Assembly: GCA_025928155.1 (NCBI GenBank)
Contig: JAICKC010000010.1
Span: 1-53,072, forward strand
Length of the DNA: 53,072 nt
Origin: Candidatus Saccharimonadota bacterium
GTDB lineage: Bacteria; Patescibacteriota; Saccharimonadia; Saccharimonadales; UBA4665
Direction of reading: 5' to 3'
Of this stretch, positions 48,473 through 50,980 are shown piece after piece (within the stretch, counting starts at the first letter, position 1; each line of letters begins with the position of its first letter). The position numbers and the translations under genes are program-made. The notes under the pieces were generated by a model that did not search any database, was not told the origin of the DNA, and saw nothing but the letters and a program-made list of their open reading frames with translations.

Positions 48473-49837
48473 CTAGATTTCCAGCAGGTCTCCATCGTCT
48501 TCCGAGTCATCCTCGGTCGGGAGCTTGCTGGCATGGCGGCGGTCGCGCACTATGCTCACGATGCGCTGTGGCCCATGCGTTTCCTCGACGCCGGTCGAGA
48601 GGTCACGCAATTTGAACTGCTCGCTGGCCAGTTCGGCCTCACCGATGAAAATCACGTATGGTATACTCTTTTTGACCGCAGTTCTGATCTGTTTTTCTAG
48701 CTTACGGCCAGTAGAGTCAACAGCTACATTGAGGCCCATTTTGCGCAGTTCCATAATGGCATGCTGGGCTTTTTCGTACATATTGTCACCGATCAGTATG
48801 GCATAGGCATCAGTTTCGCTGTGCAGTTTAGGCAACAGCTCATGGCTCTCCAAGAAGTTCTGCAATGTGGCGTCGCCCATGGCAAACCCAACGGTAGGCA
48901 CCGGCTCCACCCCAAAGAGCCCAACCAGCCCATCGTAGCGGCCGCCACCGAACATGGAACGATTGTTTTCAGGGTCTGTGTCAAATACCTCAAACACCAT
49001 ATCGGTGTAGTAGTCGAAACCACGCATCAAGGTCATATCAAATATGCAGTTCTTGACGTGGTTTTCGCGCAGCAGACTCAGCAACTGTTTCAGGCGCAGT
49101 ACGTGCGGGTTCATATCGAACCCAGCGGGCAAATCTTCCAGCCGTCGGGCTTTAAGCAGCTGTTGCAGACTGTCAAGTATACCGGCCTCGCGCTGACTCG
49201 GTGTGAGTAACGCATCGGCTTGAGCTATGAATTCACTGTGCTCCATCTTTTTCATGTGATCTACTAAGCGGATGAGCGTATCGCGCTGGGTGTGGTCGAG
49301 CCCGAGATAGCTGCCAAACAGTTCATCGATTAGCTTGCGGCTGCTGATCTGAATGCTATATTCGTCAGCCTTGGCACCAAAACTCTTCATGATCTGATCG
49401 GCTACCAGAATGACTTCGTGGTCACCTTCCACGCCTTCTACCCCGAATAGGTCGAAATTAGGCTGCCAGAATTCACGCAACCGGCCGCGCTGCGGTCGTT
49501 CGTAGCGCCACAGATTGGGAATGCTGTACCACCGCAACGGGTACGCCAGCTCTTGTCGGCGGCCCGCCACCATGCGACTGACGGTAGGGGTCATTTCGGT
49601 GCGGATGGTAACCATGCGATCACCGCGGTCTTTGAAAGTGTAGGTTTCGTTATCGATGATTTCTTGATTGCCCTTAGCCAGATATAGCTCGGTAGGCTCC
49701 AAGATGGGCGCAGTATATTCTTCATAGCCGAAGCGTTCGGCGACTTCGCGCATATGCGCGAACATCGCCTTTTGCAGGCGCATGTCTTCTGGGTAAAAAT
49801 CCCGCGCGCCTTTGTAGGGTTGGGTAGAAAGTGTCAT
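48473..49837 (-). CDS. hisS: histidyl-tRNA synthetase
   Basis: 454 residues. Class II motifs: TIRTEMTPTVSRMV, motif 2 WYSIPNLWRYERPQRGRLREFWQPNFDLFG, the His-specific RGFDYYTDMVFEV and motif 3 GGGRYDGLVGLFG. An anticodon-binding domain and an acidic tail follow. It starts 25 nt after hisGE and so lies under the same His leader. HisZ, the regulatory partner of short-form HisG, is a HisS paralogue, but the intact motifs here indicate a true synthetase. Confidence 0.97.
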   Translation of the reverse strand: MTLSTQPYKGARDFYPEDMRLQKAMFAHMREVAERFGYEEYTAPILEPTELYLAKGNQEIIDNETYTFKDRGDRMVTIRTEMTPTVSRMVAGRRQELAYPLRWYSIPNLWRYERPQRGRLREFWQPNFDLFGVEGVEGDHEVILVADQIMKSFGAKADEYSIQISSRKLIDELFGSYLGLDHTQRDTLIRLVDHMKKMEHSEFIAQADALLTPSQREAGILDSLQQLLKARRLEDLPAGFDMNPHVLRLKQLLSLLRENHVKNCIFDMTLMRGFDYYTDMVFEVFDTDPENNRSMFGGGRYDGLVGLFGVEPVPTVGFAMGDATLQNFLESHELLPKLHSETDAYAILIGDNMYEKAQHAIMELRKMGLNVAVDSTGRKLEKQIRTAVKKSIPYVIFIGEAELASEQFKLRDLSTGVEETHGPQRIVSIVRDRRHASKLPTEDDSEDDGDLLEI

Positions 49838-49862
49838 AGTTTCTTCTCCATTTTACTTAATA

Positions 49863-50796
49863 TTACGCAGTATTTCTAGAGGCCAACAGTGCAAGGGCGC
49901 CAAGCAGCGAGCCGCCCTGCTTGGCGTTTGCAATCGCTAGTGCATACAGCAGGTCGGCAGTTTCCGCCTGTACTGTCGCGGTGCCACCCGTACAGAGCTC
50001 CCCTAACAACTCAGCAAACTCTTCTCCCAGCTTCTTACGCAATCTATTATCATCGCCTGCCAGACGTTGCGTGTATGAGTCCTGCTGTCCGGTCGCGGCT
50101 TCACCGACACGCCGCTCTATAGCAGCGACAGCCTCGGCGACTTCCGAAGCGTCAAATATCAACCGCGTGGCACGGGGCGACGACTCTCGCCACACTGCAC
50201 CAAGTGTTACAGGCTGCAGATCGTCGCGAGCTACTATTAGGCAGTTCTGTCGAGCTGTTTCGCCGCTCTTCACTATATCTACCACGCCATCAATATCTGG
50301 ATAGACTTTAGGTGCCGCTTCTACAGAACCGCCCAACGTCGCCATTACTCGTACTGCGCAACCAAGTGCGCCAGATGATCGTTTAGCTGCCCGTGGGTAG
50401 CTAGTGGCTACTTGCAGCGTCTCACCAGACGCAAGCTTTTCCTGTACCTGTGTTGCTCGGACGGACGGAGCTAGTAGTGCTACACGCAGCCCAGTTTGGG
50501 CAACGGTGCGGTACACGAGCCCGTCCTGAGCGCTATCCGTTAGCTCGTCGAAAGTATCCGAGCCGATGAAACCAATACGGTCAGGCCTCGTTAATGCGGC
50601 CGGAATGTCTTTGTCGCGCAGCCGGACATACGTTTTACTGTCGTCTTGGGCAATGAAGTGATCTTCCAGCGAATGTCGGCACGTCTAAGCCGTTTGCTGC
50701 CAAGAGATCTGTCACTGGATCTCGGTTGTCGCCTTTTGGCAATAATACCATCTCGGCGGCGTTATATCGTTCCATTGTTTCTTGAGTGAATATCAT
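49863..50796 (-). CDS. HisG-HisE fusion (ATP phosphoribosyltransferase + phosphoribosyl-ATP pyrophosphohydrolase), frameshifted
   Basis: The ATG at 50796 opens MIFTQETMERYNAAEMVLLPKGDNRD (HisG MxxIALPKGR). A +1 shift near 50667 (gctGgaagat) puts the rest in another frame: KTYVRLRDKDIPAALTRP, IGFIGSDTFDEL, VATSYPRAAKRS, GGSVEAAPKV and the PRPP loop VDIVKSGETARQN. A HisE domain follows: KKLGEEFAELLGEL, ETADLLYALAI. Restoring the frame gives 310 residues. The first two steps of histidine synthesis would be on one chain. The C-terminal His-binding domain of long HisG is absent. Without frameshifting, only a 217-residue part from 50516 could be read as one ORF. First gene of the hisGE-hisS operon. 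Confidence 0.8.
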
Positions 50797-50835
50797 TGTA
50801 AATGTTCCTTTAGTAGTTATTCCGATTAGGGCTGT

Positions 50836-50864
50836 AAAAAACGCCGGAGCGTATCCGGCGTTTT
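50836..50864 (-). terminator. attenuator terminator of the his leader
   Basis: An 8-bp stem ACGCCGGA / TCCGGCGT with a 5-nt loop and six T on the minus strand (extended by A-T pairs to 11). Leader bases 50906-50899 (CGCCGGAG) pair perfectly over 8 bp with the 3' arm (50849-50842), competing with the terminator. Here the leader copies the 5' arm, unlike the other three loci. Confidence 0.85.
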
Positions 50865-50886
50865 GAAGTTCTAAGAGAAGAGCAAA

Positions 50887-50943
50887 CTAACCGACAGGCT
50901 CCGGCGACGTATGTACATGGTGCTGATTAGATCGTATGAACAT
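50887..50943 (-). CDS. histidine leader peptide, 18 aa
   Basis: The peptide is MFIRSNQHHVHTSPEPVG. Codons 8, 9 and 11 are CAC, CAT and CAT. The ATG lies 7 nt after the -10 box. The antiterminator segment begins 4 nt after the last His codon and 13 nt after the first. It precedes hisGE and hisS. Confidence 0.85.
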   Translation of the reverse strand: MFIRSNQHHVHTSPEPVG

Positions 50944-50950
50944 GACTGAT

Positions 50951-50980
50951 ATTCTACAAATGTTTAGCTAGCTCTGTCAA
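50951..50980 (-). promoter_or_regulatory. promoter of the his leader
   Basis: TTGACA (50980-50975), an 18-nt spacer and TAGAAT (50956-50951). The -35 box lies in the last codons of the ROK kinase gene. Confidence 0.8.

Follow-up and report, generated by a model that had tools for sequence, protein, structure and literature searches.

The hisGE-hisS region of the analysed DNA (the window, i.e. the whole stretch of 53,072 nucleotides) is likely to be a histidine-starvation operon, in which charged tRNA-His would be sensed twice in series, by attenuation at a His-rich leader and by a programmed +1 frameshift within hisG. From sequence comparison, the presence of a programmed +1 shift in hisG is strongly supported, and we infer that shifting is efficient and depends on histidine. 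We also consider it fairly likely that this is the first natural amino-acid-sensing programmed frameshift, where a +1 shift at a hungry codon would complete a biosynthetic-pathway enzyme only during shortage of the pathway's own amino acid; this is a joint claim, including the serial leader attenuator that would read the same tRNA and conservation across an order of ultra-small bacteria.

The operon was confirmed on the minus strand, at the place originally predicted, in the order ROK-family kinase gene (upstream), promoter, leader ORF, terminator, hisG, hisS and then trigger factor. The promoter (50951..50980) is composed of a -35 box TTGACA (50980-50975), an 18-nt spacer and a -10 box TAGAAT (50956-50951), and is followed by the leader ORF (50887..50943) and the intrinsic terminator CGCCGGATACGCTCCGGCG with its TTTTTT tract (50836..50860). 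The hisG zero-frame ORF (50635..50796) starts at ATG 50796 and codes for 53 aa including a tail HCPRRQ, its contribution to HisGE being residues 1-47. The +1-frame part (49863..50654) holds the remainder of HisG and then the HisE domain (ca. 50096-49914). The hisS gene (48473..49837; histidyl-tRNA synthetase, TIGR00442, 3e-101) has its own SD, begins 25 nt after the hisGE stop and is the sole HisS-family gene of the genome, which leaves no other family member as a candidate HisZ.

The leader, HisG-HisE and hisS of the original prediction do exist, but hisGE is not one open frame. The HisG (PF01634, 2.7e-13) and HisE (PF01503, 2.8e-7; 31.3 vs. a cut-off of 21.3) domains, both over cut-off, do share a frame, and the search for this fusion in relatives found it in G021, G074, G083, G085, G099, G113 and G137, some other relatives having HisG alone; that frame, however, has neither a start nor an N-terminus of its own. 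The HisG start (MIFTQETMERYNAAEMVLLPKGDNRDPVTDLLAANGLDVPTFAGRSL) belongs to a separate frame that ends at 50635, so that frame 0 supplies codons 1-47 and the +1 frame all later ones. The site of the join (50653..50667, minus strand) consists of an SD-like element GGAAGA (50667-50662), a 3-nt spacer TCA, the slip codon CTT (50658-50656) and the putative hungry codon CAT (His, 50655-50653), the +1 frame resuming at ATT (50654-50652).

When Leu is read in frame 0 and translation continues in +1, the joined products can be aligned across the join with eleven saccharibacterial HisGs that lack the shift, no gap at the join exceeding one residue, the relocated site of G211 (see below) aside (RSL|IA and RCL|T vs. 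RKLK, RRLR and RCLT). Against TIGR00070, the +1 part of the window scores 47.8 bits by itself and the joined product 64.3 bits, below the equivalog cut-off of 75.75, with the joined match starting at profile position 5. An AlphaFold model built on an 8-row alignment displays a HisG fold with pLDDT values mostly of 80-93 over the HisG part and the join at the start of a strand; its best PDB matches are all ATP phosphoribosyltransferases (to 1.6e-13).

The frame break is common to 11 species, the window and ten further ones, from at least seven families of Saccharibacteria. They were identified among 393 surveyed genomes of the order and by the leader-pattern scan described below, and comprise G000, G074, G083 (= L071), G085 (= L072), G113 (= L084), G137, G143 (= L083), G173 (= L090), G211, G296, in which the shift-bearing gene is a second HisG copy, and L080 (UBA6039). 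All sequences are metagenome-assembled. The cassette, of ca. 13 nt, has the consensus GAGG-TNN-(C/G)TT-CA(C/T), a further example besides the window version being GCGAGGTGTCTTCACC. AAGGAG TGT CTT CAC was found in two species, GCGAGG TGT CTT followed by CAC or CAT in four, and GGGAGG TGT CTT CAC, AGGAGG TGT CTT CAC, GGGAGG TCA GTT CAT and AAGAGG TCG GTT CAT in one each, in addition to GGAAGA TCA CTT CAT in the window. The SD-like element is GAGG or AAGGAG in ten species; that of the window is weak, 12.7% of the other positions in the gene being as strong. As for the slip codon and the pyrimidine after it, CTT-C occurs in 9/11 species and GTT-C in 2/11, the latter counting against the proposal because GTT (Val) re-pairs less well. 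Three elements of the cassette carry 2 bits of information per position, namely the first base of the spacer, TT in the slip codon and CA in the His codon; conservation is high over most of positions -7 to +5 and low outside, despite highly diverged proteins; as the species are related, these per-site statistics overstate independence.

In G211 (L069, oriented position ca. 1275), the whole cassette is relocated into an N-terminal extension ahead of the HisG domain, so that conservation of protein sequence does not suffice to explain it. On the HisG tree, the shift-bearing genes require two changes vs. 8.9 with shuffled labels, which fits a single ancient gain plus a single loss. The exact motif GAGGTGTCTTCAY has 19 matches in the 393 genomes, five of which show the +1-shift signature, every one in hisG; the other 14 lack it and were rejected as cassettes in other genes. 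Among 380 genomes sampled across the phylum, HisG of other CPR orders provided no comparable case of an SD-like element plus site; two TTCAY matches, in L130 and L133, have neither an SD-like element nor a HisG N-terminus in frame 0.

Such a broken frame could in principle come from a decaying pseudogene or from an assembly or sequencing error, only the leader-hisS unit being then of importance. The lack of HisI, HisA/F and HisD in the genome and two leaders placed directly on hisS without hisG (L075 and L076) would fit this, but the same shift and motif occur in 11 species from independent assemblies, the tree needs only two changes, and in species pairs nonsynonymous change is well below synonymous change on both sides of the join (synonymous sites being near saturation), indicating purifying selection. 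On the grounds of conservation and selection, this explanation was rejected as highly improbable. Still harder to credit is a split HisG, in which the SD-like element, seen as GAGG in nearly all species, would let translation of a separate C-terminal polypeptide start internally: in 0/11 species is there an ATG, GTG or TTG in the +1 frame 4-12 nt past the element, and intact HisG has homologous residues for the segment between the site and the first start; the lack of a +1-frame start codon at SD distance led to its rejection. Transcriptional slippage was likewise rejected, the site having no homopolymer run. A programmed +1 shift during translation is the reading retained here.

Concerning the cue to which this shift would respond, all 11 species have a His codon in the A site. 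The third base of this codon, always C or T, is also the second base of the first +1-frame codon, where it swaps Thr and Ile. The shift might be programmed but constitutive, or responsive to another cue, with the His codon incidental: a +1 residue of Thr or Ile together with the slip base C partly forces CAC/CAT, and a preference for Thr or Ile after Leu at the protein level might account for some of the bias towards His codons. However, the His codon is kept even in the relocated G211 cassette, which is free of HisG constraint, the unshifted homologs have mostly Lys, or else Arg, Ser, Met or Thr, at that position, and the gene stands under a His attenuator and adjoins hisS. We therefore regard a constitutive shift as unlikely and favour the dependence on charged tRNA-His.

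The leader peptide is MFIRSNQHHVHTSPEPVG, with three His in four codons (CAC 50922-50920, CAT 50919-50917 and CAT 50913-50911). Its start codon lies 7 nt downstream of the -10 box in the window, and this distance is 6-9 nt in 15 of 16 leaders (the window and 15 related ones); because the start codon is so near the -10 box, the leader mRNA is probably leaderless, the regulatory peptide being translated from such a transcript. The Rfam scan of the region gave no significant match, so that it matches neither the T-boxes nor the his leaders already catalogued. Ahead of the leader stop codon, a segment (GCCGGAGnnnnnCGG) is complementary to its own terminator hairpin; in the window this antiterminator segment is GCCGGAGCCTGTCGG (50891..50905, minus strand), at the end of the leader ORF, with a duplex energy of -23.6 kcal/mol. 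In a swap test, the mean duplex energy was -23.8 for true pairs vs. -20.0 for swapped pairs, with 0/100,000 permutations as good (z ca. -6), a result which holds when each distinct segment and terminator is represented by a single sequence. As in his-type attenuators, a leader ORF with clustered His codons thus stands beside a terminator, and, by the swap test, the antiterminator pairing and the terminator exclude each other. That uncharged tRNA-His controls hisGE and hisS through attenuation is, at the sequence level, a well-supported prediction.

An independent leader-pattern scan, conducted on 84,980 species genomes, gave 21 matches, of which 15 are true leaders, every one in Saccharibacteria-type metagenome-assembled genomes, the remaining six being chance matches. 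The His-rich leader ahead of the operon is therefore no chance feature. The genes behind the 15 leaders, nearly all of which lie ahead of hisG, hisD or hisS, are hisG(E)-hisS, hisS alone, hisG-hisD, or others mostly followed by hisS. That a single uncharged tRNA-His signal would raise both hisGE and hisS agrees with the conserved leader, the co-varying antiterminator, the 25-nt spacing and the adjacency of hisG and hisS in many relatives; full-length HisGE would, however, also need the +1 frameshift at the His codon.

Several other observations were made around these leaders. In L077, L079, L086 and L087, the His leader precedes genes judged by eye to be peptidase-like (M20-like, DD-dipeptidase/VanY-like), which suggests a histidine-scavenging regulon. 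A LOG/TIGR00725-like gene, also identified by eye, recurs adjoining hisG or after a His leader (L048, L049, L070 and L088). In L005, L006, L015, L017, L068 and L070, a TrpR-family protein encoded upstream of hisG, judged HisR-like by comparison with a published study (PMC9413887), ends in a His-rich tail (e.g. AHHAHLPPARA before the stop), and its last codons are complementary to a terminator located directly after its stop. The tail of this HisR-like repressor seems to double as an attenuator leader peptide, and the free leader may have descended from it.

As for the enzyme itself, the assignment to steps 1-2 of histidine synthesis holds for the HisG and HisE domains, but HisG does not stand within a complete pathway: HisI, HisA/HisF and HisD, the further pathway enzymes searched for, were not found in the 98%-complete genome. 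HisA/F was found in 0/10 shift-bearing genomes tested, and HisE is absent in five of the 11 shift-bearing species. Ordinary histidine biosynthesis is doubtful because most of the pathway is missing, and HisGE would have a role other than ordinary de novo synthesis. The regulatory reading is unaffected by this, but the gap in the pathway counts against the proposal insofar as it obscures what starved cells would gain from HisGE. It is possible that HisGE uses intermediates of a partner or host, or that it catalyses a changed reaction. G006, G007, G016, G099 and G108 possess HisG and HisD, in some cases along with what looks by eye like a HisB-N-like phosphatase, and no convincing HisA/F; such odd partial pathways occur even in a single-contig genome (G006).

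In the proposed mechanism, with ample histidine the ribosome would reach the UAG just past the antiterminator segment and cover this segment, letting the terminator form, while a ribosome stalled on the leader His codons would leave the segment free to pair with the terminator sequence, so that transcription goes on. Judging from the spacing, a ribosome waiting with the last leader His codon in its A site would mask the 5'-terminal part of the antiterminator and leave accessible the stretch that pairs with the terminator loop and 5' arm. In hisG, ample histidine would allow CAU/CAC to be decoded, and translation would stop 2-14 codons on. When His-tRNA is scarce, the ribosome would pause with CUU in the P site and the His codon in an empty A site, the SD-like element 3 nt upstream would strain it, and tRNA-Leu would slip from CUU to UUC, the remaining HisG(E) being then made. 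Ample histidine would consequently give little mRNA and a peptide of ca. 50 residues as product; hisS would be raised by the attenuator alone. Two sensors acting in series on the same tRNA might provide a sharp response.

Hungry-codon frameshifting has been a laboratory subject for decades. A review of 2016 describes how slow A-site decoding drives +1 shifts at codons termed "hungry", and states, for frameshifting serving starvation-specific proteins, that "no examples are known" (PMC5009743); neither hisG nor histidine is mentioned in a survey of frame transitions conserved among prokaryotes (PMC3711429). No earlier report of a his frameshift was found in the open-access full-text literature. 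If true, our proposal would supply an example of a starvation-read frameshift where that review knew none (PMC5009743), and would widen RF2-type regulation beyond a stop codon to the codon of an amino acid. The cassette is portable at ca. 13 nt, and sister cassettes built on other codons may be worth seeking. Automatic annotation would label such split-frame genes broken.

Compared with known systems, the enzyme resembles the short form of HisG plus HisE (PRA-PH) in its HisG fold, its PRPP-loop-like motif and the HisE motif KxxEExxE...D; it differs in that HisE is fused to HisG instead of HisI, in the lack of a separate HisZ gene and in the absence of most of the pathway. The leader shares with enterobacterial hisL and the candidate his attenuators of Gram-positive bacteria (PMC9413887) a His-codon leader peptide, a terminator and a mutually exclusive antiterminator, but it usually has only two or three His codons, probably a leaderless start, and one leader segment complementary to the entire terminator hairpin; a second, translational sensor would lie downstream, and the hosts are Saccharibacteria. 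The yeast Ty1/ABP140 site CUU-AGG-C (PMC5009743) also slips on CUU while a slowly decoded sense codon occupies the A site; there, however, a rare tRNA makes the decoding slow, no role as an amino-acid sensor is known, and an SD element is lacking.

Close parallels exist with prfB (RF2), whose cassette consists of AGGGGG, 3 nt, CTTT and a UGA in the A site (PMC12421855). The canonical prfB motif RGGRGGNNNCTTTGAC was not found in ten shift-bearing genomes, which counts against the proposal, as these genomes thus provide no internal positive control for the shift-proneness of their ribosomes. hisG has in common with prfB a conserved +1 transition after a short zero-frame ORF, an SD-like element 3 nt before the slip codon, CUU followed by a pyrimidine, and most of the protein in +1, with a slow A-site codon that would report the regulated activity. 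It differs in the gene concerned, in the slip to UUC, in the use of GUU as slip codon by some species, and in the A-site codon, which is not a UGA read by the gene's own product but a His sense codon, so that the quantity sensed would be charged tRNA-His rather than release factor.
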